Made by a program: the position numbers and the translations under genes. Of a stretch of DNA of 64,000 nt, positions 9,046 through 63,368 are shown piece after piece. The stretch spans positions 1-64,000 of the forward strand of contig NZ_QURB01000005.1 of NCBI RefSeq assembly GCF_003402975.1, in the 5' to 3' direction. The notes beneath the pieces are model-generated. The model did not search any database and was not told the DNA's origin. It saw only the letters and a list, made by a program, of their open reading frames with translations. Source of the DNA: Brumimicrobium aurantiacum (GTDB taxonomy: Bacteria; Bacteroidota; Bacteroidia; Flavobacteriales_D; Crocinitomicaceae). Every line of letters begins with the position of its first letter. The stretch's first letter is position 1.

Positions 9046-9134
9046 ATGTAGTGTATTATTCGTGGCTAAACAACCAGCTAATTTCATTGCAAATTAAAGA
9101 ATATCAGCGGATAATAAAAATATACACATAAAAA

Positions 9135-9160
9135 AAGCGCCTCTCCGAAGAAAGACGCTT
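9135..9160 (-). terminator. Rho-independent terminator of the 762-residue T9SS gene
   Basis: On the minus strand an 11-bp stem (AAGCGTCTTTC with GAGAGGCGCTT, two G-U pairs) closes a TTCG tetraloop and is followed by a run of T. Nearly the same hairpin follows the next two paralogous genes upstream. Confidence 0.9.
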
Positions 9161-9183
9161 TAAATTAACAATTAACTTTTTGA

Positions 9184-11472
9184 CTATTGTTTTACAACTT
9201 TAAAAGTTTTGTAACCTTCATTGTTATATACTCTTAGTGTATAAACACCATTTTCTAATTCATCAATTGATAAAGTTGTTTTTGTTGCATTATTCAAGGC
9301 TTGATTTTCTACCAAAACTACACGCCCATTCATGTCCAACATTTCTATTTTTAAATCAGAAGTGTTTGAAGGGTTTACAATGTGTAATTGTGATGTTGCA
9401 GGATTAGGATAAACTGAAAGTTCAGTAAACATTTCACCTTCGATTGAAAGATAATCACAGTCGGATCTAACAACTACCTCCGCGATAGAAGTATCTGCAG
9501 GACAAACACCATTATCTGCGATATATGTATAATTATACGTTCCCGGTACATTTGAGGCGATTGGCTGTTGAGTTGTCAATAAGCTCCCTGAGAAATCGTA
9601 CCATTCTCCCCCTAGATCAATTTGACCTGACAAAATACCGATTAAATCGATTGGTTGATTCATACATACCTCAACAGTACCATCTTCCCCTGCTTTTGAT
9701 TCGTCGTACACATTTATTGTAGCTATGGTTGTATCATAACACACATAACGTTCGACATAATAAACATCGTAAGAACCTGGTGTTAGATATTCAAAATTAA
9801 AGACAGAATCTTGTGTCAGAAACGCAGGTTCATTTGGGAAAGACCAAATACCTCCTCCATTAGGTTTTGTAATGATTCCATTATTTAAATCAATAGTATC
9901 TTGAAAAGCACAAACATTCACACTTCCATCTTGACCTCCAAGGCTAATACAGTCATCCACTCTAATTTCATCAAGTAATATATCGTTATACCAAGAATAA
10001 CTATTTGTAACAGATTTATTGACCATAAAACGAACTTTTATATCATTCCCTTGATACGTTGATAAATCGTAATTAACAAAAATCCATTCAGTACTATCAC
10101 CTCGTAAAGTATCTATCAAATTCCATGAGCTACCATCAAACACTTCTATGATCAAAGGAACATTATCACCTGGATTGTTTGTATTATTACTAAACCATTC
10201 GAATGACAAGTAAGGAGTGTTTAATTGAGAAATATCAATTAGAGGAGTAACCAACATCACACTATCTGAGTAGGGTGAATTCCCATCAACTTTAGTAAAT
10301 TCTCCTGCATTTTTACCATTATTTGCTGCGCCATAATCACCTTGATCATTAAAATTCCAAAAATTATTTACACTTGTACTCGGATCTGAAGATAGATTTT
10401 CCCAACATGTTGGTTGCGCCGCACTGTTGAAACCTTCATAAAATGGTGCCACCTCAACTCCACATGCTGTTCTAATAGATATTGGTCCTAATGTATAATC
10501 GTCATTACCGTTGTTACAATTTTCAGTAATTATTACAGAGTAATCAGTATTAGGCGTTAAACCAGTGATACTTTCAGTTGTTGATGTACCTGTAATTGTA
10601 CCAGTACTTTGAAGACCTGTACCAGGCGTAAATCCAGCAGGACCATATTCAAATATATAATCATCATTCCCTGAACCATGATCCCATGTAAAATCAAAGC
10701 TAGTTGCAGTTACATTGGAAAAGCTTGTATTGGTAATTACACCACAAACAATATTTAAGGGCAATGTTTGATTATATGTAGAAGAAATTTCAGCAACGCT
10801 TAAAGCTCTATTATATAAACGAAACTCATCCATTTGGCCATCTAACCCTGTATTACTAGATCCTCCATAAGATCCAACACTAAAATTACTTCCGCTAATT
10901 GTCAAATTTGTTGATTGCACTTCTGAGTTAACAGAAACTCCATCTACAAAAACTTCACTCATTCCTGTTGATGCAGTATAGGTTATTGTAACGACACTTC
11001 CGCCTGTTACGCCTAAAACATTGGGAATTTCTAAATCTGTCCATCCAGTCCCACGTAAAACAAGACCATCAGTAGGTGCGACCCCTCCAGCAAAACATCT
11101 GAAAGATCCTGCTGTTGCATCCCCAAAAATATACCTAGTTCCCGATGGTTCATTCATATTCACCCAAAAAGAAATTGTCCAATCACCTGTCAATGATGTT
11201 GAATAATTTGTATTAATATAGTTTGTTGTCCCTGAAACTCCAGACCCTTCTAATGCAGATCCAAACTGACCAATTCCAGATTGAGATAAAGATCCGTTAA
11301 TGGTTCCTGACCCTGAACTTCCTGGATTCGCATGATTAGTTACCATTGTCCCTGACTGATCAAATTTGTAGTACAAAATTTCAGGAACATTAAATGTTGT
11401 TTGACTGTAGGTATAAAAACTAAATAGTAGAATACATATACTACAGAGCAAATTAATAGATAATTTTTTCAT
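9184..11472 (-). CDS. T9SS-exported LamG-FN3-MAM-like modular protein
   Basis: The protein has 762 residues: signal peptide 1-24 (ending FYTYSQ), then a LamG/concanavalin-like domain at about 30-235 (LYYKFDQSG ... DGQMDEFRLYNRALS), an FN3 module at about 240-335, a MAM-like sandwich at about 340-510, two Ig-like repeats, and a T9SS sorting domain at about 685-762 (VYPNPATSQLHIV ... TFKVVKQ). It differs from its neighbours in having LamG instead of GEVED at the N-terminus, suggesting module shuffling among paralogues. LamG domains commonly bind glycans or proteins; the ligand is unknown. It is surface-exposed by inference. Confidence 0.88.
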   Translation of the reverse strand: MKKLSINLLCSICILLFSFYTYSQTTFNVPEILYYKFDQSGTMVTNHANPGSSGSGTINGSLSQSGIGQFGSALEGSGVSGTTNYINTNYSTSLTGDWTISFWVNMNEPSGTRYIFGDATAGSFRCFAGGVAPTDGLVLRGTGWTDLEIPNVLGVTGGSVVTITYTASTGMSEVFVDGVSVNSEVQSTNLTISGSNFSVGSYGGSSNTGLDGQMDEFRLYNRALSVAEISSTYNQTLPLNIVCGVITNTSFSNVTATSFDFTWDHGSGNDDYIFEYGPAGFTPGTGLQSTGTITGTSTTESITGLTPNTDYSVIITENCNNGNDDYTLGPISIRTACGVEVAPFYEGFNSAAQPTCWENLSSDPSTSVNNFWNFNDQGDYGAANNGKNAGEFTKVDGNSPYSDSVMLVTPLIDISQLNTPYLSFEWFSNNTNNPGDNVPLIIEVFDGSSWNLIDTLRGDSTEWIFVNYDLSTYQGNDIKVRFMVNKSVTNSYSWYNDILLDEIRVDDCISLGGQDGSVNVCAFQDTIDLNNGIITKPNGGGIWSFPNEPAFLTQDSVFNFEYLTPGSYDVYYVERYVCYDTTIATINVYDESKAGEDGTVEVCMNQPIDLIGILSGQIDLGGEWYDFSGSLLTTQQPIASNVPGTYNYTYIADNGVCPADTSIAEVVVRSDCDYLSIEGEMFTELSVYPNPATSQLHIVNPSNTSDLKIEMLDMNGRVVLVENQALNNATKTTLSIDELENGVYTLRVYNNEGYKTFKVVKQ

Positions 11473-11494
11473 CAGTATTTTTTTTGTGTTTGAT

Positions 11495-11502
11495 CAAAAT
11501 TA
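11495..11502 (-). promoter_or_regulatory. Bacteroidota -7 promoter element
   Basis: TAATTTTG on the minus strand matches TAnnTTTG exactly and lies 22 bases upstream of ATG 11472. No clear -33 TTG is visible, and the motif is short enough to occur by chance in AT-rich DNA. Confidence 0.4.
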
Positions 11503-11603
11503 CATTATTTATTTCAGTAAAAAAAATATAAAATTCCTGATTCAAATTCTATATACCATTTTTTAAAAAACAATCATAATTTGCATCTACTGACACATAC
11601 AAA

Positions 11604-11633
11604 AAAAGCGCCTTTCCGAAGAAAGACGCTTTT
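11604..11633 (-). terminator. Rho-independent terminator of the 928-residue T9SS gene
   Basis: The minus strand reads AAAGCGTCTTTC-TTCG-GAAAGGCGCTTT followed by T residues. It is nearly identical to the hairpin at 9135-9160, showing that the terminator was copied along with the gene's 3' end. Confidence 0.92.
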
Positions 11634-11651
11634 AGTTAAAAATCAACCATA

Positions 11652-14438
11652 TTATTGTTTAACAACTTTGAAAGTTTTGTAACCTTCATTATTGTAAACT
11701 CTTAAAGTATAAACTCCATTTTCTAAATGATTTATTGTTAATGTTGCTTCTGAAGCATTGTTCAATGCTTTATCTTCAACCATTACAACCCGACCATTCA
11801 TGTCTAACATTTCGATTTTCAATTCAGAAGTGTTAGATGGGTTAACGATATTTAGTACTGATGATGCTGGGTTAGGGTAAACTGAAACATCAGCAAACAT
11901 TTCACCTTCGATTGATAAGAAATCACAATCTGGTCTAACTGATACTTCAACCACAGCAGTATCCGCAGGACAAACACCATTATCTGCAATATACTCATAG
12001 TTATAACTTCCAGGTATATTTGCAGCTATTGCTTGGGAACCTACAAGAGTTCCTTGATAATCATACCATTCTCCACCTAAGTCTACATTTCCTGAAAGAA
12101 CACCATAAAGATTAATTGGTTCGTTTTGACATACTTCAATTACACCACCTTGACCAGCTCTTGATTCATTATAAATATTAATAGTGGCAAAAGTCGTGTC
12201 ATAACACACGTTTCTCTCAACATAATACAAATCGTAACCTCCTTCAGAAAGAGAAGACACACTAAGAACTGAATCTTGGTTTAGGTATTCTGGATGATCA
12301 GGAAAAGACCAATTACCAGAACCTGTTGGTTTAACAATAATATTATCATTAAGGTTCACTGTATTGTCAAATCGACATACATCAAACACACCATCAACTC
12401 CTCCTAAATCAATACAATCATCAACTCTTACATTATCGAGTAAGATATCATTATACCATGAATAATTTATCGTTACTGATTTATTCACCATAAAACGAAC
12501 TTGAATGATATTATTTGCAAAAGCATTTAAATCGTAGTTAACGAATCTCCATTCAGGATCATCACCTTTAAGGGTATCAATGTGATTCCAGTTTGTACCA
12601 TCAAACACTTCAATAATCAATGGAACATTATCTCCTGGATTTTCTATATTGTTACTAAACCATTCAAAAGAAAGGTATGGGTTTGCTAATTGAGAGATAT
12701 CAATTTGAGGAGTAATCAACATCACACTATCCGCATAAGGAGAATTACCATCTACTTTAGTAAATTCTCCTGCTAATCGTCCATTATTAGCAGCACCATA
12801 ATCTCCTTGATCATTGAAATTCCATGAGTTATTACTACTTGAACTAGGGTCTGAAGACAAGTTTTCCCAACATTGTGGTTGAACTGCATTGTTAAATCCT
12901 TCATAGAAAGGAGCTACGGCAATACCGCAGTCTGTATATTGTGAAATTGGTCCTCTCCAATCACTTGAATCACCAGCTCCACAGTCTGTACGTACATAAA
13001 ACTCATATTCAATACTTGGGTTTAATCCAGTCACTGTAAAAGGGTTTGTTGAAGCGACAACTTCTGTTCCGTTACCAGGAACAAAACCTGACAAACCATA
13101 TTCAATCACCCAGTTTGTAGCTCCATTCAGTTCATTCCATTCTAATTCAACACTATTTGTTCCTACAGAAACTGTATCAATTTCAATTGGAGGAAGACAA
13201 GAAGGAGAAGTCACTATATCCAAAGTATAATCCTCAGCTTCTGCGCTAGACCCTGAACAAGCACCAGGATTACTTCCGAAATAGTCAGAAACAACTCTCA
13301 TTCTGTACTGTCCAGTAGTTGTTCCAAATGGGATCATAAATGAACCTGAAGTTGGCATTGATGTATATCCAGAAGATGTATAAACTTTTTCTGCAGAACT
13401 AAAGTTGAAATCATTGTCATAATCTACATAAATAGAAGTACCATACGTAGAAGTGTTACTTGCTTCAATTGTAAAGTCAATAATCTGAGTTTCATAAGCT
13501 TGTAAAACAATTGATGTAAAATCAGAATATCCAGCTGCCGTTGTTCCAGCCCCTGAATTTAAATTACTTATATCCTGAACACCTCCAGTTGTTGTAAAAG
13601 AATTAATGTGTTGGGGTGAACCACTCGTAATTGTGAAATCACAATATTGATTAGAGAATGAGTATGGACCCGACCAGGCACTTAAATCACCCCCACCACA
13701 ATCGGATTGAACATAAAAGTCATATTCAGACAATGGTGAAATTGTAAAAGTGTAAGGATTACTCGTAACTCCATTCACAAGAGTACCATTTCCTGGTGTA
13801 AATCCTGCAGCACCATACTCTACATTCCATGTTGTAGCAGTATTAACTTCTGTCCATCCGATCTCAGCAGAAGTACTGGTTAAATTTGATGTATAAATAT
13901 TTTGTGGCGGTAAACAAGAAGGTATATTGACGATCTCAATAGTATAATCTTCTGCTTCAGCGCTAGATCCTGAACAAGCATCAGGGTTACCTCCTAAATA
14001 GTCAGCAACCACTCTCATTCTATATTGCCCCAATGCCGTACCTGCAGGAACAGTAAATGAATTAGACAATGGAAATGAGACGTAGCCTGAAGATCCATAT
14101 ACTTTTTCAGCAGAATCAAAGGTGAAATCATTGTTCCAATCAATAAAAATTGATACCCCGTAAGTTGAGGTATTATTAGCCTCAATTGTAAAATCAACCG
14201 TTTGCATCTCATAAGATTGTAAAACAGTTGAGGTAAAGTCAGAGTAACCAGCTGTAGTTGAGCCCGCTCCCGAACCTGTGTTATTGATATCTGATACAGC
14301 TCCCGTAGTAGCAAAACTATTAATATGCTGGGGATTACTTGATGTGATGGTAAAATCACAATAACTTTGTGCATTAAGGTTTGAGCTTAGTGCAAATGCA
14401 CCCATAAGCAACAAACCTTTAAAAAATTTTCTTTTCAT
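11652..14438 (-). CDS. T9SS-exported GEVED-FN3 repeat protein
   Basis: I choose ATG 14438, which opens with the signal peptide MKRKFFKGLLLMGAFALSS...NAQ; an ATG eight codons earlier is less natural. Order of modules in about 928 residues: GEVED (25-155; WNNDFTFDSAEKV ... SAEAEDYTIEI), FN3, a second GEVED (about 255-385; DYDNDFNFSSAEKV), FN3, MAM-like sandwich, two Ig-like repeats, T9SS sorting domain (VYPNPASSVLNIV ... TFKVVKQ). GEVED domains are named for their conserved acidic motif and are common in T9SS surface proteins. The GEVED-FN3 pair is internally duplicated. Function unknown, surface-exposed by inference. Confidence 0.88.
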   Translation of the reverse strand: MKRKFFKGLLLMGAFALSSNLNAQSYCDFTITSSNPQHINSFATTGAVSDINNTGSGAGSTTAGYSDFTSTVLQSYEMQTVDFTIEANNTSTYGVSIFIDWNNDFTFDSAEKVYGSSGYVSFPLSNSFTVPAGTALGQYRMRVVADYLGGNPDACSGSSAEAEDYTIEIVNIPSCLPPQNIYTSNLTSTSAEIGWTEVNTATTWNVEYGAAGFTPGNGTLVNGVTSNPYTFTISPLSEYDFYVQSDCGGGDLSAWSGPYSFSNQYCDFTITSGSPQHINSFTTTGGVQDISNLNSGAGTTAAGYSDFTSIVLQAYETQIIDFTIEASNTSTYGTSIYVDYDNDFNFSSAEKVYTSSGYTSMPTSGSFMIPFGTTTGQYRMRVVSDYFGSNPGACSGSSAEAEDYTLDIVTSPSCLPPIEIDTVSVGTNSVELEWNELNGATNWVIEYGLSGFVPGNGTEVVASTNPFTVTGLNPSIEYEFYVRTDCGAGDSSDWRGPISQYTDCGIAVAPFYEGFNNAVQPQCWENLSSDPSSSSNNSWNFNDQGDYGAANNGRLAGEFTKVDGNSPYADSVMLITPQIDISQLANPYLSFEWFSNNIENPGDNVPLIIEVFDGTNWNHIDTLKGDDPEWRFVNYDLNAFANNIIQVRFMVNKSVTINYSWYNDILLDNVRVDDCIDLGGVDGVFDVCRFDNTVNLNDNIIVKPTGSGNWSFPDHPEYLNQDSVLSVSSLSEGGYDLYYVERNVCYDTTFATINIYNESRAGQGGVIEVCQNEPINLYGVLSGNVDLGGEWYDYQGTLVGSQAIAANIPGSYNYEYIADNGVCPADTAVVEVSVRPDCDFLSIEGEMFADVSVYPNPASSVLNIVNPSNTSELKIEMLDMNGRVVMVEDKALNNASEATLTINHLENGVYTLRVYNNEGYKTFKVVKQ

Positions 14439-14469
14439 AAATATTTTATATAGTTTATACAATAGGGCC

Positions 14470-14477
14470 CAAACATA
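14470..14477 (-). promoter_or_regulatory. Bacteroidota -7 promoter element
   Basis: TATGTTTG on the minus strand matches TAnnTTTG exactly, 31 bases upstream of ATG 14438. A matching -33 element is not obvious. Confidence 0.4.
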
Positions 14478-14711
14478 AGTTCATATCCGAATTAAGACAC
14501 AGTAAACCTGTTTAATATTTCTTAAACATTTACACATCTAAATACACGGTAAAGCCCAATTTATAAGCAATAATTAACAAAAAAAATTAATCTAAGACAA
14601 CTAAAAAAAAGTAACTAACTGTTATCGTGCCTTTTTCAGTTCGCACACACGAAAGAATGGTTACACCAATTCCTTTTAAAAAGAAATAAAAATTACAAGC
14701 TAATTAAAAAA

Positions 14712-14739
14712 AAAGCGCCTTTCGCAAGAAAGACGCTTT
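14712..14739 (-). terminator. Rho-independent terminator of the 959-residue T9SS gene
   Basis: The minus strand has AAAGCGTCTTTC paired with GAAAGGCGCTTT around a TTGC loop, followed by T residues. It is the third copy of the shared terminator; the loop differs by two bases from the copy at 11604-11633. Confidence 0.92.
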
Positions 14740-14758
14740 AAATTAGAAGTTAACTTTA

Positions 14759-17638
14759 TTATTGTTTTACTACTTTGAAAGTTTTGTGACCTTCTTTATT
14801 ATAAACTCTTAACGTATAAACTCCATTTTCTAAATGGTTTATTGTTATTGCTGCTTCAGAAGCATTGTTCAATGCTTTATCTTCAACCATAACAACACGA
14901 CCATTCATATCTAACATTTCTATTTTTAATTCAGAAGTATTAGATGGGTTAACGATATTTAGAACTGATGAAGCTGGGTTAGGGTAAACCGAAATATCAG
15001 TAAACTCTTCTCCTTCGATTAATAACCAATCACAGTCTTGCCTTACTGTTACTTCAACAATAGAAGTGTCAGCAGGACAAACACCATTATCAGCAATATA
15101 TTCGTAATTATAAGCTCCAGGAATATTTGCAGCTATCACCTGAGAACCGACAAGTAAACCTTGATAATCATACCATTCACCACCTAAATCAACACCTCCT
15201 GATAGAGCACTATATAGACTTATTGGTTCATTTTGACATACTTCAGCTACACCATCATTCCCTGCGCTTGAAGGGTTAAATACATTAATAGTTGCGATTG
15301 TTGTGTCATAACAAACGTTTCTTTCAACGTAATAAACATCATAACTACCAACTGGTATACTTAAAACGTTGAATACAGAATCCTGAGTAAGGAATACTGG
15401 TTGATTAGGGAATGACCAAATTCCTCCACCATTTGGTTTTGTAATAAGACCTCCGTTTAAGTTAACTGTACTGTCTAATCTACAGACATCCAAATCACCG
15501 TCAATCCCTCCTAAATCTATACAATCATCAATTCTCACCTCATCAATAAGAATATCGTTATACTGAGCTAAAGAGTTTGTGGCAGTTTGGTTAACCATAA
15601 ACCTCACTTGAATAATATTTCCTATGAATGAACTTAAGTCATAGTTTGTAAATAACCATTCAGGATCATCTCCTCTTAAAGTATCAATAAGATTCCAGTT
15701 TGTACCATCAAACACTTCGATAATCAACGGAACATTATCACCAGGATTATTTGTATTGTTACTAAACCACTCAAATGAAAGATATGGATTAGTCAATTGA
15801 GATAAATCAATTTCAGGAGAAATTAACATCATACTATCAGGTGTAACTGAAGAACCGTCAGCCCATGCGAAGTTACCAGGAGTTCTCCCGTTGTTAGCTG
15901 CACCATAACCTTGTACTCCTGAAAATTTCCAAAAATTATTTGTACTTGTACTATTTAAACTAGAGAGATTTTCCCAACATTGTGGTTGAATACCGTTATT
16001 AAATCCTTCATAGAAAGGAGCCACAGCAACACCACAATCAGTGTATTGAGTAAATGGACCTCTCCATGCACTTGAGTCACCAGAACCACAATCTGTTAAT
16101 ACATAAAAATCATACTCTGCACTTGGATTTAAACCTGAAACAACAGCAGGATTTGTATTCACACTTATCTGCTGTCCAGCACCAGTACCTTGAGCAAAAC
16201 CACTTAATCCATACTCTATCACCCAATTTGTAGCTCCATTTAATTCATTCCATTCTAGTTCAACACTACTAGTACTTACACTAACGGTATCGACATCAAT
16301 TGGAGGTAAACAAGAAGGAGGATTTATTATATTCAAGGTGTAGTCTTCCGCTTCACCATTACTCGCGCTACAAGGGTCTGGAGAAGAGTTGATATATGCA
16401 GCAACAACTCTCATTCTATATTGACCAACTGGTGTTCCAGCAGGTATAAAAAACGAACCACTTCCTGGTAATGCCATATAACCACCAGAATTAAACACTT
16501 CCTCAGATGATTCAAAATTAAAGTTATTGTTGAAATCAACAAAAATTGACACCCCCCAAATTGTTGAAGTATTACTCGCTACCATATCAAAATCAATGGT
16601 TTGCGTTTCATATGCATCAAGCATTGTAGTTGTGAAATCTGAGTAACTTGGAGACGTTGTTCCAGGACCAGAATTTTGATTATTGATATCAATAATACCT
16701 CCAGTCGTTTGGAAAGAGTTGATCCATTGTGAAGAACTTGTAGTTGTAAACGTACAGTAAATATTATTAAAAGCATAAGGACCTTTCCACTCACTTAAAT
16801 CACCTCCTCCACAATCAGATTGCACGTAAAATTCATAATTTGTTTGAGGAGTAATTGTAATATTTAATGGGTTACTATTTGTTCCTGTTACTTGTCCAAT
16901 ATGTGCACCTGTTCCTACTGCAAAACCAGGAGCTCCCCACTCAACATTCCATGTTGTGGAGCCATTAGGATCAGTCCATGATAATTCCGCAGAAGTATTT
17001 GAAATATTTGCCGCTAACAGATTATCTGGTTTAAAACAAGTTGGTGCTTCAAACAACCTAACATCATCCAATAATATATCATTATAAAAAGCAGTACCAG
17101 GCACTGTTTGATCAATAGAAAACCTAACTTGCACAGTAGCACCTGTAAAGGCTGATAAATCCAAAATTTCTTCTTGCCAAGCAGGATCATCACCACTAAG
17201 GGTTGTAATCGTTGTCCAAGTTGTTCCATCATTCACCTCAACTTTCAGAGGCATATTATCTCCTGGGTTATTTGTATTATTACTGAACCAATCAAAACTT
17301 AATGCTGGTGTCGTTAAAGGAGACAAATCTACCATTACCGTTGTAAGATCGGTACTCGAAGGGTTTGGTGTAGATCCATCAACCCATGCATAAGTTCCAT
17401 TTGAACGACCATTTGAGGTAGCTCCATAACCGGGAGCACCCGTAAACTTCCATAATTCATTGGCTGAAGTACCCCCTGAAGTAGTATTTGTGTAACATGA
17501 CGGCAAAGAACCACCACTAAACTCCTCAAGATAAGGAGCCACTTCTGGCGGACATTGAGCGTTAGAAACATTAGCAAACGAGGCTACGGCTAAAAGAGAA
17601 AGCCCAATCCCCTTTACTTTCTTGTAAAAATTGTTCAT
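14759..17638 (-). CDS. T9SS-exported protein with two MAM-like domains, GEVED and FN3
   Basis: The 959-residue protein starts with a signal peptide (MNNFYKKVKGIGLSLLAVA...NAQ). Modules in order: MAM-like (about 30-200), FN3 (about 205-300), GEVED (about 300-430; FNNNFNFESSEEV), FN3 (about 430-520), a second MAM-like sandwich (about 525-690), two Ig-like repeats, and a T9SS sorting domain ending TFKVVKQ. Its last 75 residues are almost identical to those of the protein at 11652-14438, more similar than the N-terminal halves, which suggests gene conversion or very recent duplication. Its leader shares ACACGCGATTTATG with the next gene upstream. Confidence 0.88.
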   Translation of the reverse strand: MNNFYKKVKGIGLSLLAVASFANVSNAQCPPEVAPYLEEFSGGSLPSCYTNTTSGGTSANELWKFTGAPGYGATSNGRSNGTYAWVDGSTPNPSSTDLTTVMVDLSPLTTPALSFDWFSNNTNNPGDNMPLKVEVNDGTTWTTITTLSGDDPAWQEEILDLSAFTGATVQVRFSIDQTVPGTAFYNDILLDDVRLFEAPTCFKPDNLLAANISNTSAELSWTDPNGSTTWNVEWGAPGFAVGTGAHIGQVTGTNSNPLNITITPQTNYEFYVQSDCGGGDLSEWKGPYAFNNIYCTFTTTSSSQWINSFQTTGGIIDINNQNSGPGTTSPSYSDFTTTMLDAYETQTIDFDMVASNTSTIWGVSIFVDFNNNFNFESSEEVFNSGGYMALPGSGSFFIPAGTPVGQYRMRVVAAYINSSPDPCSASNGEAEDYTLNIINPPSCLPPIDVDTVSVSTSSVELEWNELNGATNWVIEYGLSGFAQGTGAGQQISVNTNPAVVSGLNPSAEYDFYVLTDCGSGDSSAWRGPFTQYTDCGVAVAPFYEGFNNGIQPQCWENLSSLNSTSTNNFWKFSGVQGYGAANNGRTPGNFAWADGSSVTPDSMMLISPEIDLSQLTNPYLSFEWFSNNTNNPGDNVPLIIEVFDGTNWNLIDTLRGDDPEWLFTNYDLSSFIGNIIQVRFMVNQTATNSLAQYNDILIDEVRIDDCIDLGGIDGDLDVCRLDSTVNLNGGLITKPNGGGIWSFPNQPVFLTQDSVFNVLSIPVGSYDVYYVERNVCYDTTIATINVFNPSSAGNDGVAEVCQNEPISLYSALSGGVDLGGEWYDYQGLLVGSQVIAANIPGAYNYEYIADNGVCPADTSIVEVTVRQDCDWLLIEGEEFTDISVYPNPASSVLNIVNPSNTSELKIEMLDMNGRVVMVEDKALNNASEAAITINHLENGVYTLRVYNKEGHKTFKVVKQ

Positions 17639-17782
17639 AAATCGCGTGTTTTTAATTAAAATAATAGGTTAAAAATAATCATTCCAAATCTTTTAACAAA
17701 ACTTTAAATAATTTATTCACCCCTATTATCAAATAAATCATAGCTATAAAAAAGTAGATCATTTGCGTTGCAGGGCAAAAAA

Positions 17783-17809
17783 AAAGCACCCCTTAAAAAG
17801 GGATGCTTT
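17783..17809 (-). terminator. Rho-independent terminator of the 956-residue T9SS gene
   Basis: On the minus strand AAAGCATCCC pairs with GGGGTGCTTT (one G-U pair) around a TTTTTAA loop, followed by nine T residues. Unlike the three AAAGCGTC hairpins downstream, this one has an unrelated stem. Confidence 0.88.
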
Positions 17810-17832
17810 CCAAACATAGTTTTATGATCAAT

Positions 17833-20703
17833 CTATTGCTTCACAACTTTAAAAGTTTTATGACCTTCATTGTTATAAATTCTTAATGTATAAACACCGT
17901 TTTCAAGATGACCTATTGATAAAGTCGCCTCCGAGGCATTGTTTAAAGATTGGTTTTCAACCAATACAACACGTCCATTCATGTCAAGCATTTCAACCTT
18001 CAATTCTGAAGCATTGGATGGGTTAACAACGTTTAGCAATGTTGTTGCAGGATTAGGGTAAACTGAAAGATCAGCAAACATTTCTCCTTCAATTGATAAA
18101 TAATCACAGTCTGGCCTTACAGTCACCTCAACAATTGAAGTATCCGCTGGACAAACTCCGTTATCTGCTATGTATTCATAATTATAACTTCCTGGAATAT
18201 TTGCAGCTATCGACTGAGAACCTACCAAAGTTCCTTGGTAATCATACCATTCACCTCCTAGATCAACATTCCCTGATAAGGCTCCAAACAAATTCACTGG
18301 TTCATTTTGACAAACTTCAACTACACCGTCTTCACCTGCTCTAGACAAATCAAAAACATTAATTGTAGCAGTTGTAGTATCAAAACATACATAACGTTCT
18401 ACGTAGTAAACTTCGTAAGAACCTGGCGCTAGATAATCAAAGTTAAACACAGAATCTTGCGTTACAAATGTTGGTTCAGAAGGGAAAGTCCAGAAACCAG
18501 TTCCATTAGGCTTTGTAATTAGTCCATTATTCAAATCAAGAGTATCTTCTAACCTACAAATGTCAATTGAACCATCGATTCCTCCTAAACTTACACAGTC
18601 ATCAACTCTTACTTCATCCAATAAGATATCATTATATTGAGCCAATGAATTTGGGAAAGTTTGATTAACCATAAATCTTACCTGAATAATATTACCTTGA
18701 AATTGTGTTAAATCAAAATTTGTAAACATCCATTCTGTATCGTCCCCCATTAATGTATCCAACAAGTTCCAATTCGTTCCGTCAAACACTTCGATAATTA
18801 AAGGAACATTATCTCCAGGGTTATTTGTATTGTTACTAAACCATTCAAAAGAAAGATAAGGATTTGACAATTGAGAAATATCAATTTCAGGAGTCACCAA
18901 CATCATACTATCCGGTGTTGTTGAAGAACCATCAGCCCATGCGTAAGTTCCAGCAGCTCTACCATTATTCGTTGCTCCATAACCCGGAGTTCCAGAGAAT
19001 TTCCAGAAGTTATTTGCACTTGTACTTGTATTATTTGATAGATTTTCCCAACATTGTGGCAGCACAGCATTATCAAATGCTTCATAGTATGGAGCTACAG
19101 CTATCCCACAATCAGTAAATTGAGAAAAAGGTCCTCTCCAAGCACTTGAATCACCCGATCCACAATCTGTCATTACATAAAAATCATATTGTGTACTCGG
19201 ATTTAATCCTGAAATGACAGTTGGATTAGTACTAGTACTTGTCAATTGACCAGAACCCTGAACAAATCCAGTTGTACCGTATTCGATAATCCACTCAGTT
19301 GCACCATTAAGCTCAGTCCACTCTAACTCAACCGATGTAGTTGTAACCTCAACCGTATCAATATCTGTTGGAGGCAAACATGAAGGCGGAGTGATAATTT
19401 CTAATGTAAAGTCAGCTGCCGACCCCCAAGTTTCGCTACTACAAGGTAATGTATTTGCGTTCGCATACTCACCTCTTACTCTCATACGATAAGTTCCTAC
19501 TGGAGTTCCAGCTGGAATAGTAATTTGTTGCGTCATAATAGAAGAACCATAAGAAGTAGAAACCATTTCTGTTGCGTGATCAAACACAAAATCATTGTTC
19601 CAGTCAACCCACGCTCTTACGGTGTAACTATAAGTGGTTGGATCATAAGAGGAATTTAAATCAAAAGTAAGTGTCTCATAAGCCTGTAACACCTGCGCTG
19701 TCTCATCAGTAAACCCACCTGCCGGGTAAGAAGTAGCAGTATGTGAAACATCTGCAATTGCACCATAGGTTTCAATTAATGAAAGAAATTCTGATGTGCT
19801 TGTGTAAACTGGTAAACAATATGTATTTGAAAAAGCATAAGGGCCACTCCAAAAACTTTCATCACCACCACCACAATCTGTTTGAACATAGAACTCATAT
19901 TCAGTTGATGGTGTAATGGTAATTGTTAATGGATTACTATTCGTACCAGTAGATTGACCTATATGCGCTCCTGTACCTACGGCAAAACCAGGCGCTCCCC
20001 ATTCTACATTCCACGTCGAAGCACCATTATTCTCAGTCCATGTTAAGTCAGCAGAAGTTGCAGAAACATTAGACACAGCCAAATCAGTTGGTTCGTGACA
20101 AGTAATTGGATTCGCTATTCTAACTTCATCCAACAGAATATCATTATAAAATGCTGAAGAGGAAGTTACAGTTTGATTTGACCTAAAACGAACTTTAATA
20201 AGATTACTTCCTGAATACGCACTCAAGTCATAATATTCTGTTTTCCATAGTGGATCATCCCCCATCAAGGTATCCAAATCATCCCAATTCGTACCATCAT
20301 ATACTTCAATAATCAATGGAACATTATCACCAGGATTATTTGTATTGTTACTAAACCATTCGAAAGAAAGTTCTGGACTTGTTAATCCTGAGACGTCTAT
20401 CTCTGGAGTTACTAATTCAACATTTGCTACCTCTGGAGTAGACCCATCATTCCAAGCATAAGAACCTGCAGGTCGTCCATTTGCAGTCGCTCCATATCCG
20501 GGAGCTCCTGAGAATTTCCAGAAGGCTGATGTACCTGTACCTGAGGAATTATTTTCCCAACATGAAGGCAATGCCCCTCCAGAAAAGCTCTCTGTCCAAG
20601 GAGCTACCTCAGCTGTACACTGAGCATTGGATGTTGTTGCGAAAGACGCTGCTGCCAATAAAGACAGGCCAACCCCTTTCATTTTTTTGTAAAAATTATT
20701 CAT
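17833..20703 (-). CDS. T9SS-exported protein with two MAM-like domains, GEVED-like and FN3
   Basis: The 956-residue protein begins with a signal peptide (MNNFYKKMKGVGLSLLAAA...NAQ) nearly identical to that of the protein at 14759-17638. Modules: MAM-like (about 30-200), FN3, GEVED-like (WNNDFVFDHATEMV, with a diverged AADFTLEI ending), FN3, MAM-like, two Ig-like repeats, and a T9SS sorting domain ending TFKVVKQ. It is the first gene of the five-gene tandem array. The pair at 14759 and 17833 share whole architecture and 5' leader, so they are the most recent duplication by organisation. Function unknown. Confidence 0.88.
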   Translation of the reverse strand: MNNFYKKMKGVGLSLLAAASFATTSNAQCTAEVAPWTESFSGGALPSCWENNSSGTGTSAFWKFSGAPGYGATANGRPAGSYAWNDGSTPEVANVELVTPEIDVSGLTSPELSFEWFSNNTNNPGDNVPLIIEVYDGTNWDDLDTLMGDDPLWKTEYYDLSAYSGSNLIKVRFRSNQTVTSSSAFYNDILLDEVRIANPITCHEPTDLAVSNVSATSADLTWTENNGASTWNVEWGAPGFAVGTGAHIGQSTGTNSNPLTITITPSTEYEFYVQTDCGGGDESFWSGPYAFSNTYCLPVYTSTSEFLSLIETYGAIADVSHTATSYPAGGFTDETAQVLQAYETLTFDLNSSYDPTTYSYTVRAWVDWNNDFVFDHATEMVSTSYGSSIMTQQITIPAGTPVGTYRMRVRGEYANANTLPCSSETWGSAADFTLEIITPPSCLPPTDIDTVEVTTTSVELEWTELNGATEWIIEYGTTGFVQGSGQLTSTSTNPTVISGLNPSTQYDFYVMTDCGSGDSSAWRGPFSQFTDCGIAVAPYYEAFDNAVLPQCWENLSNNTSTSANNFWKFSGTPGYGATNNGRAAGTYAWADGSSTTPDSMMLVTPEIDISQLSNPYLSFEWFSNNTNNPGDNVPLIIEVFDGTNWNLLDTLMGDDTEWMFTNFDLTQFQGNIIQVRFMVNQTFPNSLAQYNDILLDEVRVDDCVSLGGIDGSIDICRLEDTLDLNNGLITKPNGTGFWTFPSEPTFVTQDSVFNFDYLAPGSYEVYYVERYVCFDTTTATINVFDLSRAGEDGVVEVCQNEPVNLFGALSGNVDLGGEWYDYQGTLVGSQSIAANIPGSYNYEYIADNGVCPADTSIVEVTVRPDCDYLSIEGEMFADLSVYPNPATTLLNVVNPSNASELKVEMLDMNGRVVLVENQSLNNASEATLSIGHLENGVYTLRIYNNEGHKTFKVVKQ

Positions 20704-20843
20704 AAATCGCGTGTTTTAAAATTATAATAATTTTACTAAAGTAATTGTTTTTTTAATATTAACAAACAATTTAGCAAATGATTTAACGAGGAGTAATAGC
20801 TCGTTTAGCGATGAAATTAAGCCATTCATCTAAAACATCTAAT

Positions 20844-33220: not shown

Positions 33221-33770
33221 ATGCGGTAAAGTTTGGTTTTACCGCAAAGTTCGCGGAGGTTTCGCAGCGGTTGAGTTCGCTAAGTTTTTCACTTGCAGTG
33301 AAATTGATTCACCTGTATGCTCAAAACTCTTGCTCAAAACTGATTCTGGTGTTCACTCTTTTTTTATGTGTTAAAGTTGGACGAGAAATTTGGTTTTACC
33401 GCAAAGTGCGCGGAGGTTGCGCAAAGTAAAGCAGAGGTTATGCTCGATAAGTTTTTCACTTGCAATGAAGTTTGTTTAACCCTCTATGCTAAATACTCTT
33501 GCTCAAAACTGATTCTGGTGTTTGCTCTTTTTTTATGCGGTAATGTTGGACGAGAAGCTTGGTTTTACCGCAAAGTTCGCGGAGGTTTCGCAGAGATCGA
33601 GTTCGCTAAGTTTTTCACTTGCAGCGAAGTTGGTTTACCTGTATGCTCAAAACTCTTGCTCAAGACTGTTTCTGGTGTTTGCTCTTTTTTTATGTGTTAA
33701 AGTTGGACGAGAAATTTGGTTTTACCGCAAAGTGCGCGGAGGTTGCGCAGAGGTGTGCAGTGGTTTGTAA
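33221..33770 (+). repeat. Tandem repeat with A-B-A-B higher-order structure downstream of the tRNA
   Basis: Four units follow the tRNA terminator: A1 33221-33365, B1 33366-33534, A2 33535-33691, B2 33692 to about 33770 (truncated). All share TTTTACCGCAAAGT, GCGGAGGTT and TTTTTCACTTGCA and each complete unit ends in CTC plus seven or eight T. A units begin ATGCGGTAA and carry TTCGCGGAGGTTTCGC; B units begin ATGTGTTAAAG and carry TGCGCGGAGGTTGCGC. Spacing of the shared core is 157, 169 and 157 bases, so the A+B period is 326. Short open frames through it give cysteine-rich repeats (FTCSE) that I do not consider genes. This array fills the roughly 690 bases between the tRNA and the next gene. 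Confidence 0.92.
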
Positions 33771-58913: not shown

Positions 58914-59861
58914 TCAATTATCACCCTTTAAAAAAGTCACCATTTTTTCATTCACAGTTTCAGATTGATCAATAGATAAAAAATGTCCTGCGTTTTGAAT
59001 AATTTCGCCTTTACCATGAGATAGTTCGATGGCCTTTTCAATCGTACTTTCATTATTCAGCATATCTTCATCACCAATTAAAACTAAAACAGGCATTTTT
59101 AGAGACATTAATTCTTCATTAGAGAACGGTCGCATACTCGACATGAATTTGTTTTTGGGAGCTATTTCTAATCCCAATTTATATTGTTTAATGTAGGTAT
59201 CGCTAATTAAATCTGAATTGCTAGACATACTCTCTAAATTTTGCTCAATTCGTTTTTCCTCGGATGAAAATATCATGGCAATATTTTTAAATAAATCCTT
59301 ACTCGGTTTAATCCAAGTGAAGGTTTGAGCAGGACTTAATAATATCAGGCTTTTTATATTTTTTTTATTATTCAAGGCTAGTTTAGTGGCCAACCATCCA
59401 CCTTTAGAAGCGCCAATTAAGTGATAGTTTTCTAACTCCAAAGCCAAAATAACATCTTCATACCAATCATTAACTTCTTCAATACTTTCAATATCATGAT
59501 TTAAATGAGATTTTCCAGGCTCTAAAATAAAGTCAATTGCAAATACGCGATGATCTTCGCTTAGCGACTCAATATTAGGATACCACATCGTTGAACTGGC
59601 ATTCATACCATGAAGTAAAACAACTGGATCTGCTTTTTTTGGACCACTTACAATTACGTGAGCAATTCCGTACGTAGTTGGAATGTATAATTCTTCAAAA
59701 GACGAACTCCATAGCTTTAATGTTTCGTTGTATGCATTATAGTAAGCCTCCTTTGAATTAGATGCTTTTGAAATGTACTCTGGTGTTTTTTTATATTTAT
59801 CGTACTTACCTGAACAACTCATAAACAAGAAAAAAAGAGGTATGAATAATAATAGTCTCAT
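58914..59861 (-). CDS. Alpha/beta-hydrolase lipoprotein
   Basis: The 315-residue protein has a lipobox with C16 (LFFLFMSCSGK). The hydrolase fold shows PVVLLHGMNASSTMWYP (oxyanion region), nucleophile serine in GASKGG, a candidate acid in LIGDEDML and histidine in NAGHFLS. Lipidation places it in the periplasm or outer surface. Substrate is unknown; esterase or lipase activity is likely. Upstream lies repeat copy 1, whose -7 element at 59912-59919 faces this gene. Confidence 0.88.
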   Translation of the reverse strand: MRLLLFIPLFFLFMSCSGKYDKYKKTPEYISKASNSKEAYYNAYNETLKLWSSSFEELYIPTTYGIAHVIVSGPKKADPVVLLHGMNASSTMWYPNIESLSEDHRVFAIDFILEPGKSHLNHDIESIEEVNDWYEDVILALELENYHLIGASKGGWLATKLALNNKKNIKSLILLSPAQTFTWIKPSKDLFKNIAMIFSSEEKRIEQNLESMSSNSDLISDTYIKQYKLGLEIAPKNKFMSSMRPFSNEELMSLKMPVLVLIGDEDMLNNESTIEKAIELSHGKGEIIQNAGHFLSIDQSETVNEKMVTFLKGDN

Positions 59862-59908
59862 GGATGTGATTAATTCATTTATTATAAAGAAATAAACTTG
59901 AACTTAAC

Positions 59909-60069
59909 ACTCAAATATAACTTAAACAAATTGAACAAACTCGATTTGAAGAAATATTACACCTCATTTTCAAAAGAATAAATGAAATTTTGCTAAAACG
60001 AACGGTGTTTTAAAACCGTTTAAACAGCTGGGAAGTTAAAACGCTTGGTATGAGTTTAGCTTTTACAAA
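59909..60069. repeat. Dispersed repeat, copy 1 (promoter-bearing)
   Basis: This stretch of about 160 bases aligns along its length with copy 3 at 62931-63091, sharing CTCAAATATAACTT, AAACTCGATTTGAAG, an internal GGTGTTTTAAAACC-type hairpin, GGAAGTT and CTTGGTATGAGTTT. On the minus strand it ends in TATATTTG (59912-59919), a perfect -7 element, with TTTG 16 bases before it. It is the whole gap between the hydrolase start and the DUF5694 gene's end. Confidence 0.85.
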
Positions 60070-60098
60070 TGGAACCTGTTTTGAACTGGACTTATATT

Positions 60099-60956
60099 CT
60101 ATTTTAAATATTCTAAGGTGTTGACCATCTCAAATTTTGGACTTCTTTTCATAAACTCTCTTAAAAAGGCAGTATGAGCAGTCCCCATGAGTATAAATAC
60201 CCTGTCGTCTTTTGTCATAGGAATTCTGTTCAAATTGGAAAATATTTTCATATTTCTGTGGTAAAAGATCGCTGCATTATCCGCGCCTTCAAATCCATCA
60301 TTTATTCCTACATAGAGTAATTTATCAGCATTAGTGTTTATTGAGTAATCAAGATGATTGGGCTCATTTATTAATTTTAATTTTTCAAGTAAAGAGAGTG
60401 TTTCATATTTCGCTTCTCTTTTAGCAAGTTCAGGAAATTCTTTAAATGGCTCGTTTGTAAGTTGTAAATAGGTCTTGGAATCAATAGCGTTTTCAAGATC
60501 TGGACTGTTTTCAATAAAATCCCCAACACTATAATTATAACCCATATGATTGTCTATTCCATATATTTTCTTTACATTATTTAATCTTCCAACCTCAAAG
60601 CCGATCATACTACTTTCTCCATAATTTGTATTCAGTTCATCAGGGTTTTCTAAGAAATCTTGATACGCTTTATTAATCTCATCGTTATATTTGGGCAAGT
60701 TCTCGATACAAATAATTGTAGGTTTAAATTGAGCTAACATTTTAGAAATCTCTCGGATTTCTTTTTGTGATTCTTTACTATGTTCATCGAATTCTGTTTT
60801 GTTAGCGTCAGGAGTATACCCAAAGTGAAATGTTCCAAAGTTTAATACTTTTATTTTATCACTTTTATGTTCAGTTGACTTGTCGACTTTTAATTGATTA
60901 TCCGGTGTATTACAACTAAAAAGTAAAACGGTGAATAGTAAGTAGATTTGCTTCAT
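60099..60956 (-). CDS. DUF5694-like lipoprotein (TraB/TIKI-type fold suspected)
   Basis: The 285-residue protein has a lipobox with C15 (VLLFSCNT). It shows KVLNFGTFHFGYTPDANKTEFDE near the start, TIICIENLPKY, and RVFILMGTAHTAFLREFM near the end. The GTFHF at the front and GTAHT at the back resemble the two GxxH motifs of TraB/TIKI-type hydrolases, and the whole matches the uncharacterised DUF5694 family. I infer a periplasmic or surface enzyme of unknown substrate. A perfect -7 element from repeat copy 2 lies 54 bases upstream. Confidence 0.8.
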   Translation of the reverse strand: MKQIYLLFTVLLFSCNTPDNQLKVDKSTEHKSDKIKVLNFGTFHFGYTPDANKTEFDEHSKESQKEIREISKMLAQFKPTIICIENLPKYNDEINKAYQDFLENPDELNTNYGESSMIGFEVGRLNNVKKIYGIDNHMGYNYSVGDFIENSPDLENAIDSKTYLQLTNEPFKEFPELAKREAKYETLSLLEKLKLINEPNHLDYSINTNADKLLYVGINDGFEGADNAAIFYHRNMKIFSNLNRIPMTKDDRVFILMGTAHTAFLREFMKRSPKFEMVNTLEYLK

Positions 60957-61005
60957 GATCGGTTATCTTAATTAAATTGGCTATAAAGATTCTGTGTACA
61001 AATTC

Positions 61006-61110
61006 CACTCAAATATAACTTTTACAAGTTGAACAAACTCGATTTATACGAAAATTAATTCTTCATTTCGAAAGAATAAGTAAGGTTAATTTTAAGATTT
61101 TGTTGAAAAA
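61006..61110. repeat. Dispersed repeat, copy 2 (shorter)
   Basis: It shares CACTCAAATATAACTT, GAACAAACTCGATTT and GAAAGAATAA with copies 1 and 3 but is recognisable for only about 105 bases. On the minus strand it also ends in TATATTTG (61010-61017), 54 bases upstream of the DUF5694 start at 60956. The remaining bases to the next gene hold the terminator at 61147. Confidence 0.8.
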
Positions 61111-61146
61111 TCATCATTGATTATACAACTATTGAGATATAAAAAA

Positions 61147-61177
61147 ACGCGACCTAAAACGTATATTCAGACCGCGT
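61147..61177 (-). terminator. Terminator of the Crp-YceI operon
   Basis: On the minus strand ACGCGGTCT pairs with AGGTCGCGT (with wobbles) around a 13-base loop and is followed by seven T residues. Confidence 0.75.
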
Positions 61178-61210
61178 ATAAACAGATGTAAAACTATAAT
61201 TGAATCTATT

Positions 61211-61612
61211 CTAATCATAAGCTTCTTTTGCTTTTTGGAAGAATGGAGCTAATCCGAAGAATGCCATCGCTGGGAAGAAGTGCATTGGAATAACCAGCCC
61301 TGGGAACATTTCTGGAAACTCAACTTCTAAAGGGAGGCTCATTGCCATTACAGGTACAATACTCAAAAATGAAAGCACCATAATGAGGATGTTCAACACA
61401 CCGTAAAGATTTGGCTTTTTAACTTTATCGAGAATGATGTATCCTACACCCATCAGCACACTTCCAATGATTGATGAAAATACGATTGCAACTTCATCTA
61501 TGACTGCAGTGAAGTCAAGGAAATAGAATTCCGAATAGATGTTAAAAAAGATGATACCTGCCACAGATGCTAAGATTCCAGCAACTCCTCCGTGAATTAA
61601 ATGCTTTTTCAT
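61211..61612 (-). CDS. Four-helix membrane protein of unknown function
   Basis: The 133-residue protein has four hydrophobic segments (GGVAGILASVAGIIFFNIY, VDEVAIVFSSIIGSVLMGVGYIIL, YGVLNILIMVLSFLSIVPVMAM, MHFFPAMAFFGLAPFF). It begins three bases after the YceI stop and so is the last gene of the Crp-YceI operon. I do not recognise a family. Confidence 0.78.
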   Translation of the reverse strand: MKKHLIHGGVAGILASVAGIIFFNIYSEFYFLDFTAVIDEVAIVFSSIIGSVLMGVGYIILDKVKKPNLYGVLNILIMVLSFLSIVPVMAMSLPLEVEFPEMFPGLVIPMHFFPAMAFFGLAPFFQKAKEAYD

Positions 61613-61615
61613 GGT

Positions 61616-62146
61616 CTATTTTGTTAATGGAATTGTTACATCCAACGAAATTTTGTCAGAAACTTTTTTCGACATTCCTTTCATTGTTCCTACTTTAAAA
61701 TCTAAACGCTGCACAGAGAATTTAGATTTGATGGTGTTATCACTGAACGAAAAAGGAATCGTCATTTCTTTGGAAACACCGTGAATTGTCATTATCCCCT
61801 TTACTTTCATTTGATTCTCCTCTTTAAATACTTCAGAAGAGTTAAAGGTAATTGTAGGATACTTCTCTGCATCGAACCACTTGTCACTTACTGCGTGCTT
61901 GTTTTTCATTCCATTTCCGGTATTGATGGAATTTACATCTATCGTGAAAGATAATTTCGATGCTGAAAGATCATTTTGGTCCAAGATTACATCACCTTCT
62001 AAGGTTTTGAATACACCTTCAACTTCAGTTCCTGAAAATTTAACGGAATGTTTATCCGAAACTTTCCAGTTGATTGTGCTCGCAATTGTGAAGGCAGAAA
62101 AAAGAATTAATGCTCCTGCTAAAAATAAATAATTGATTGTTTTCAT
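61616..62146 (-). CDS. YceI-family periplasmic protein
   Basis: The 176-residue protein has a signal peptide and a lipocalin-like YceI domain with the typical DKHSVKFSGTEVEGVFKTLEGDVILDQNDLSASKLSFTIDVNSINTG opening and WFDAEKYPTITFNSSEV. YceI proteins bind polyisoprenoid-like lipids in a beta barrel. It is encoded 90 bases downstream of a Crp/Fnr regulator on the same strand, a frequent pairing in Bacteroidota, and is probably controlled by it. Confidence 0.93.
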   Translation of the reverse strand: MKTINYLFLAGALILFSAFTIASTINWKVSDKHSVKFSGTEVEGVFKTLEGDVILDQNDLSASKLSFTIDVNSINTGNGMKNKHAVSDKWFDAEKYPTITFNSSEVFKEENQMKVKGIMTIHGVSKEMTIPFSFSDNTIKSKFSVQRLDFKVGTMKGMSKKVSDKISLDVTIPLTK

Positions 62147-62236
62147 GACTTTGTTTTTATTAAAATTAATTGATGCAACAAAAGTCGGGACATTTTAAAG
62201 CCTGTGCATTAACCTAAATTAAGAAATCAAAAAAAG

Positions 62237-62776
62237 CTATTTATTTCTGCTCATGTTACCTCGAATTTTACTGAGGGCCTCAGGGGTGATGCCAAGATAG
62301 GAGGCTATCATTTTTTGAGGGAGACGGTTGGGCAGTTGTGGATATGTTTCTAAAAAGTGCAAATAACGTTCTTTTGCGGAAGCGCTCATCATTAAAATAA
62401 TTCTACGCTGCATCACGGCCACTCTTTTCAATAACGGCTTAATTACATCTTGAAAATCCATTTTCTTGAAATAATCAGCCATTAGCGCTTCGCGATCTAG
62501 AGGTACAACAATAGAGGGCTCAATACTCTCAATATACAACAAAGCTGGTTCATTAAATTCGATGGACTCGACATCCGTAATGATCCAACCTTCTGAAGCA
62601 AACATAAAATTGTGTTCCCTGCCTTTTTCATCAATCGTGTAAGCACGTAGGAGACCTTCTTTAACATAAAAAGTCTTTATAGATTTATCGCCAGCATGCT
62701 GGATTATTTCACCCTTTTTGTAAGACTTTGTTGGGGTGCTATCGGTAATTTCAAATATTTCAGCGAAATTGTTCAT
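62237..62776 (-). CDS. Crp/Fnr-family transcriptional regulator
   Basis: The 179-residue protein has a cyclic-nucleotide-binding-like beta roll (about 15-115; YKKGEIIQHAGDKSIKTFYVKEGLLRAYTI) and a short C-terminal helix-turn-helix (about 140-179; RLPQKMIASYLGITPEALSKIRGNM). The usual cNMP-binding arginine motif is not obvious, and there are no Fnr-type N-terminal cysteines, so the ligand is unknown. It leads the operon with YceI and the four-helix protein. Confidence 0.9.
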   Translation of the reverse strand: MNNFAEIFEITDSTPTKSYKKGEIIQHAGDKSIKTFYVKEGLLRAYTIDEKGREHNFMFASEGWIITDVESIEFNEPALLYIESIEPSIVVPLDREALMADYFKKMDFQDVIKPLLKRVAVMQRRIILMMSASAKERYLHFLETYPQLPNRLPQKMIASYLGITPEALSKIRGNMSRNK

Positions 62777-62915
62777 ATCATATATTCATTTATGCTCAGG
62801 TAAGGGTAAGTTTTTGAATAATCCATTTTCTAGGCTACCTCTATTTGTTAATGCTCAAAACTTTCAGGACTCTTGATAATGGTTCTTGTATTTGTCCCCA
62901 ACAGGAGTCTGCGCA
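62777..62915. other. Leader region upstream of the Crp-family gene
   Basis: About 140 AT-rich bases between the Crp start and the poly-C tract. I see no open frame, hairpin or promoter motif that I can support; transcription reaching the gene may start in the repeat beyond. Confidence 0.5.
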
Positions 62916-62925
62916 CCCCCCCCCC
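62916..62925. repeat. Homopolymer (C)10 tract
   Basis: Ten consecutive C residues stand out in AT-rich intergenic DNA, ten bases from repeat copy 3 and about 140 bases upstream of the Crp-family start, between the repeat's -7 element and the gene. Such tracts vary in length by slippage and are error-prone in sequencing. Confidence 0.9.
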
Positions 62926-62930
62926 TATTT

Positions 62931-63091
62931 CTCTCAAATATAACTTTTACAAGCTTAATAAACTCGATTTGAAGGAAGATTATTTATTGATTTTAAGAGA
63001 AAGGATAAGGTTTATTTTTGTGGAAAGGTGTTTAAAAACCGATTGAATAGCTAGGAAGTTGGGATACTTGGTATGAGTTTATCTTTTACAA
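62931..63091. repeat. Dispersed repeat, copy 3 (promoter-bearing)
   Basis: It aligns with copy 1 over about 160 bases with the same orientation and the same ends (CTCAAATATAACTT to GGTATGAGTTT.(T/G)CTTTTACAAA). On the minus strand it ends in TATATTTG (62935-62942), 159 bases upstream of the Crp-family start; its -33 position reads TTTA rather than TTTG. Confidence 0.85.
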
Positions 63092-63121
63092 AAAAAAAAC
63101 TTAGTTAATTTGCCAATGCTA

Positions 63122-63368
63122 TTATTTTCGAGCTAAGAATTCTTTCGCAGTCAAAATAGGAATTTTTGAGTTTTTAAGGTCTTTTTTACATTTAGGGAAA
63201 TATCATAGTTTACTACAAACATTTAGATAAACGTACTGTGTCTAGCCAATCCTTCCCATCAAATATAACCATATTCTTATTTGAAAAGCCAAGGAATTCA
63301 AGCATTTTCAATGGCTTATATGGGAGATTCAAGACAACGGAATTATTAAGCGAATGTACTAATCGCAT
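63122..63368 (-). pseudogene. Decayed gene fragment with frameshift
   Basis: From ATG 63368 the minus strand reads a protein-like 51-codon stretch (LNLPYKPLKMLEFLGFSN then NMVIFDGKDWLDTVRLSK) to a TAG at 63213. Shifted by one base, a second protein-like stretch (CKKDLKNSKIPILTAKEFL) ends at TAA 63122. The composition is unlike random AT-rich translation, so I read it as the 3' remnant of an inactivated gene. The first part faintly resembles a GT61-type glycosyltransferase end, but I do not claim it. Confidence 0.35.

Follow-up and report, generated by a model that had tools for sequence, protein, structure and literature searches.

We found that three copies of a repeat in a 64,000-nucleotide stretch of Brumimicrobium aurantiacum DNA (contig NZ_QURB01000005.1, positions 1 to 64,000; this whole stretch is hereafter called the window) are very probably decayed right (3') ends of IS1182-family insertion sequences (ISs). 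The analysis covered the 64-kb window and the whole genome of this organism (G000; 3.42 Mb, 22 contigs). Copy 3 is homologous to the right end of an IS from a related species, including its terminal repeat, and copies 1 and 2 are homologous to copy 3. All three copies have a single orientation (minus strand), each lies upstream of a leftward gene, and each carries on the minus strand the box TATATTTG, an exact match to the -7 element TAnnTTTG of the Bacteroidota sigma promoter. The copies are thus ordinary in kind, as worn IS ends, and unusual in pattern.

The original prediction, made from the letters of the window alone, had described the three copies, their common orientation and their boxes correctly. 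Copy 1 covers 59904-59995 and continues to 60069. The core of copy 2 is 61002-61093, and the relic as a whole extends over 60977-61093 with a worn terminal repeat, TTTGTACACAGAATCTTTA. Copy 3 has its core at 62927-63018 and continues to 63092; the relic spans 62899-63092, of which 62899-62916 is the terminal repeat and tip, GTGCGCAGACTCCTGTTG. The box of copy 1 is found at 59912-59919 (51 bases from the start codon at 59861), that of copy 2 at 61010-61017 (54 bases; start codon at 60956) and that of copy 3 at 62935-62942 (159 bases; start codon at 62776). The predicted TTTG 16 bases ahead of the box was also confirmed, in copies 1 and 2 only. The hairpin stretch and the far end CTTGGTATGAGTTT had been predicted for all three copies; they occur in copies 1 and 3, which have about 160 bases in common with similar far ends, but are absent from copy 2, whose match is about 92 bases long. 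Nor do the copies end at the box, as had been thought, since copies 2 and 3 run on past it into the terminal repeat.

A genome-wide search with copy 3 recovered copy 1 (E 4.2e-21, 74% identity over 160 bases) and copy 2 (E 4.1e-15, 78% over 92 bases), and beyond these no match below E 0.02. Chance similarity among the three copies is ruled out by these E-values. Copy 1 as a query gave an extra 34-base match at C5:485 (L034, E 5.1e-4) and a 24-base match (E 0.012); C5:485 and L036 were discarded by eye. No further full copy was found in the 3.42 Mb. The box itself occurs four times on the plus strand and six times on the minus strand of the window, and three of the six minus-strand sites are those within the copies. 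Together with the next two bases, it is identical across the three copies (10/10 positions), versus 38/60 positions before the box, a weak sign that the box may have been kept up. Another of the minus-strand boxes (63260-63267) shows a 17-base likeness to the copies and has no gene directly after it; it is perhaps another worn end.

We then searched 149 genomes, including that of B. aurantiacum, with copy 3. Six genomes matched at E 0.001, among them two relatives within the genus, B. oceani C305 (G002) and B. salinarum LHR20 (G005). The single weak matches L063 (G051), L064 (G115) and L065 (G082) were discarded; by eye, L063 lies at the end of an open reading frame (ORF) resembling an outer-membrane receptor, and L064 and L065 were judged by eye only. 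In B. oceani the match corresponds to the 3' end of an ORF of 516 amino acids, whose score against the IS1182 transposase model (NCBIfam NF033551) is 312.6 bits (cut-off 270). In this element, TATATTTGA is formed by the last two codons and the stop codon of the transposase (Tyr-Ile-stop). Terminal inverted repeats are present at both ends: GGGTTTGTGCGCAGACTCCCG lies about ten bases past the stop codon, and its imperfect mirror, CCGTCAGACTGCGCAAAAACCC, about 75 bases before the ATG.

Copy 3 shows 72.8% identity to the right end of the B. oceani IS over 158 aligned positions (E 3e-11), and it contains GTGCGCAGACTCC exactly at 62904-62916. When the copies are aligned with IS right ends, the terminal repeat is kept in copy 3, worn in copy 2 and lost in copy 1. 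A profile of the three copies found five IS right ends in B. oceani and B. salinarum, with E-values from 7e-7 to 1.4e-4. In a shuffle test against five IS ends that kept the box fixed, copy 3 scored above every shuffle for all five. Like the transposase, copies 1 and 3 have frames with SYI-stop at the end, although the protein-level matches of the copies are weak when taken alone (E 0.1 to 0.7). Since no intact IS1182 transposase exists in the B. aurantiacum genome, where only a C-terminal scrap was found (C20:28787, E 0.039), we regard the window copies as relics rather than elements.

Several observations weigh against this assignment. At E 1e-3, neither copy 1 nor copy 2 by itself matched the IS at the DNA level, and in the shuffle test copy 2 exceeded the shuffles for four of the five IS ends and copy 1 for three. 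Because their own matches are weak or absent, the assignment of copies 1 and 2 leans on copy 3. Moreover, copies 1 and 3 have no DNA match to the IS beyond about position 63052, and no left end or left repeat was found for any of the window copies.

Related right ends were collected from several sources. A class-wide transposase search of 395 genomes gave 30 places in 22 genomes, of which 21 were usable; of the others, six lacked a recognised C-terminal motif, two extended beyond the end of the contig, and L116 overlaps L134. An order-wide search with the terminal repeat (399 genomes) gave 16 places; inspection by eye removed those in G037, G334, G103 and G091, which have no CGTT tip, and L107, an IS end, is at a contig edge with no downstream DNA. 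The 17 places from a phylum-wide pattern search comprised copy 3, one IS1182 end already in the class sample (G711), and 15 that were dropped by eye. The other sources were a pattern search of the collection that required the box (the sole basis of L083), the copy-3 search, and the B. aurantiacum genome. In total, 32 right ends were examined, 31 of them with a next ORF of at least 80 codons; copies 1 to 3 are outside the placement and flank counts.

According to the original prediction, a placement of other copies that is random relative to gene starts would speak against a promoter-carrying module. The related ends are not placed in this way: the next ORF is co-directional in 27/31 and starts within 200 bp in 24/31. 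For 4800 positions drawn at random from the window and five long loci, the next ORF was co-directional in 52% and within 200 bp in 11%; for the 1205 intergenic positions among them, the values were 49% and 32%. The binomial tails are 5e-5 for co-direction and, at the intergenic rate, 3e-7 for distance. The exceptions to co-direction are L130, L135, L125 and L126, the last three of which have another tip, TTTTTTCACAACCTGACG. Three further copies that form an array in B. salinarum, counted apart, are followed by co-directional genes at 9, 276 and 316 bp. The gene before the left end is likewise co-directional, in 15/17. On the other side of the balance, the compared elements are partly close relatives, the control DNA comes from Brumimicrobium genomes and one related genome only, and a first run under a looser ORF rule gave 25/32 co-directional next ORFs.

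The position of the box relative to the tip was then compared. Eleven of 12 related right ends contain TAnnTTTR on the outward strand, with its first base 40-42 bases from the tip end, compared with two on the inward strand and a mean of 1.8 (maximum 6) in dinucleotide shuffles; one member of this set, L072, came solely from a box-containing query. In the class sample, whose members were found by their transposase only, TAnnTTTR is present in 10/19 distinct ends, five of them at 41-43 bases (inward strand, 5; shuffles, mean 2.7 and maximum 8). The remaining 9/19 ends have no TAnnTTTR, and five of the ten with the motif have it elsewhere; furthermore, the -33 element is not conserved among the related ends. 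These points count against a promoter function. The original idea of a mobile module with an outward promoter was therefore borne out in part: an IS1182 right end is the best match and relatives have an outward box at a fixed distance from the tip, but the -33 element did not hold.

Outward promoter activity of the box is thus inferred from sequence, and a different explanation of the same box has to be weighed. The copies may be IS1182 relics in which the box is simply the last codons and stop codon of the transposase, or a feature bound by the transposase, with no promoter activity; the proximity of genes would then reflect target choice alone. We consider this a real though doubtful alternative. 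In its favour, the box in the B. oceani element is the Tyr-Ile-stop of the transposase, and it agrees with the unconserved -33 element and with the class ends that lack the box. However, in L111, L115, L117 and L119 the TAnnTTTR box comes after the stop codon, so the protein does not explain it there, and the two middle bases of the box vary as they do in the promoter consensus.

The DNA beyond the tip is also conserved. Among 34 flanks, GTT is complete directly after the tip in 33 and is followed by A or G in 30; A and T occupy positions 11 and 12 in 29 and 24 flanks, respectively, giving the consensus GTTRNNNNNAAT. Because the tip abuts GTTRNNNNNAAT, insertion looks both site- and orientation-specific. 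AAC was seen by eye before the left tip in 15/18 readable left ends; this mirrors the GTT after the right tip, and the pair would be consistent with a stem-loop target.

Integron attC sites likewise separate co-directional genes in arrays and have GTTR at the boundary, with RYYYAAC and GTTRRRY arms. The sites described here might therefore be attC-type recombination sites of integron-like cassette arrays, in which IS1182 elements merely inserted or with which they travel. The co-directional genes before and after the sites, the GTTR after the tip and the AAC before the left tip all suit this idea, as does a 120-bp form of the element that has two arms but no transposase and lies between two co-directional genes in a Flavobacterium metagenome-assembled genome (L083:7478-7602). 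Nevertheless, the idea is unlikely. The B. aurantiacum genome has no integron integrase over the cut-off (best score 103 versus 265 bits); none was over the cut-off in 30 genomes either, where the control matched nowhere, so that absence from them is not shown. In addition, conservation reaches up to 12 bases after the tip, which attC sites do not need, and, by eye, the left RYYYAAC box mostly does not fit.

Another inverted-arm repeat was seen in B. salinarum and B. oceani (L072:2680-2775 and 9140-9240, and upstream of the IS in L071). One of its copies ends in CAACCGTTAGTGGCAAT just before a gene and resembles the IS target flank.

We then investigated other relics of these elements. All full copies in the B. 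aurantiacum genome lie within 3.2 kb on one strand, and this, together with the roughly 160 bases and similar far ends shared by copies 1 and 3, could suggest local duplication of a single intergenic region with its promoter rather than transposition. Such an origin seems improbable to us, since two more right-end relics with a terminal repeat exist on other contigs of the same genome, at the C20:28787 scrap and at C1:159477. They show 84% and 72% identity to the B. oceani end over 123 bases, and both precede co-directional ORFs, which by eye are an antitoxin-like gene and a lipoprotein gene. The match of copy 3 extends to the IS tip, and the genes after the three window copies are unrelated by family: an alpha/beta hydrolase gene (58914-59861), a DUF5694 gene (60099-60956) and a gene for a cyclic-nucleotide-binding (CRP-type) protein (62237-62776), all on the minus strand. 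B. salinarum has three internally deleted IS copies within 12 kb, on one strand, in which left and right parts of the IS meet at one shared deletion junction; one of these has no left tip, and of a fourth copy only the right end was seen.

The suggestion that the repeats are a family of short RNAs or leader structures is very improbable, because, despite the small hairpin in copies 1 and 3 and a copy 1 that folds slightly better than average (z -1.71; 9/200 shuffles at least as stable, not clearly unusual), the hairpin stretch is absent from copy 2, the folding energies of copies 2 and 3 are unsupportive (z +0.99 and -0.81), and no Rfam family reaches its gathering score in the window (L20_leader only, 24.2 versus 58.7 bits).

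Taken with the IS1182 origin of the relics, these data lead us to a tentative model. Ancestral IS1182 elements would have entered boundaries between co-directional genes in one orientation, at a preferred site where GTTRNNNNNAAT follows the right tip. As a consequence of that orientation at a co-directional gene boundary, a promoter near the right tip would point into the next gene and read into it. Each relic holds the end of a transposase gene, stop codon included, and copies 2 and 3 hold the terminal inverted repeat as well. The B. aurantiacum genome would have lost the transposase parts and kept the right ends, perhaps owing to their use by the next genes. More generally, an IS1182 lineage in Bacteroidota may insert in a fixed orientation at GTTRNNNNNAAT between co-directional, often accessory, genes, with a tip-locked outward promoter driving the next gene, and solo right ends left after decay of the transposase, including the window copies, may be domesticated promoters. 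This wider proposal is possible rather than probable.

At E 1e-15, no homologue of the DUF5694 gene behind copy 2 was found in the nine other Brumimicrobium genomes searched, which fits an acquired gene beside such an IS end. Its homologues in G040 and G054 (48-49% identity) are preceded by DNA that, by eye, is unlike the repeat, and no empty site could be read there.

Some additional features were observed. Within its terminal repeat, copy 3 has a run of ten C residues (62916-62925; G on the gene strand), which separates the box from the CRP-type gene. Runs of this kind can gain or lose bases, and expression could vary as a result. The B. aurantiacum genome contains C-terminal fragments of tyrosine recombinases, each with a 66-amino-acid open frame and one stop, at C20:24311-24505 and C16:258204-258395, and by eye another such fragment directly follows an IS right end in L069 (after position 16455). 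Large families of long direct repeats at 7693-20720 and 33229-33765 of the window probably encode domains that recur within large proteins.

Activation of a neighbour by an insertion sequence is usually regarded as a matter of lucky orientation. If the proposal is true, an element whose outward promoter is turned towards a gene by its choice of site and orientation would systematically provide newly acquired Bacteroidota genes with promoters, and worn IS ends would be unannotated promoters. We found no description of a fixed orientation with a tip-locked box in the titles and opening parts of abstracts of the searched literature on IS1182 and on Brumimicrobium insertion sequences.

The principle of an IS-supplied promoter is not new, as it is known before resistance genes of Bacteroides fragilis and has been discussed for Amoebophilus, for which the available part of one report considers co-transcription from IS elements (PMC3196728). 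In B. fragilis, IS elements upstream of cfiA, nim and erm genes are thought to supply the promoter, and TAnnTTTG is named there as the -7 promoter motif, according to the available part of PMC6927303. The position upstream of a gene, the presumed promoter and the motif are alike in the two systems; that account concerns resistance genes in clinical isolates, whereas here directional placement is seen across many genes. Closer in family is IS1272 of Staphylococcus aureus, an IS1182-family element that, in the accessible text of PMC5678879, replaces stem-loop targets without target duplication. It resembles the elements described here in its transposase family, its imperfect terminal repeats and its mirrored flanks fitting a stem-loop target. 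However, its targets are described in that text as sharing no sequence, while the related ends here have the flank consensus GTTRNNNNNAAT. The single orientation relative to genes, the box at a fixed distance from the tip, and window copies without a transposase also set the present elements apart from IS1272. ISAjo2-type elements of the IS1202 family likewise lie in one orientation beside a defined site, but, as the portion of PMC10132070 at hand describes them, they belong to another family, use a pdif/dif target and generate 5-bp target duplications.

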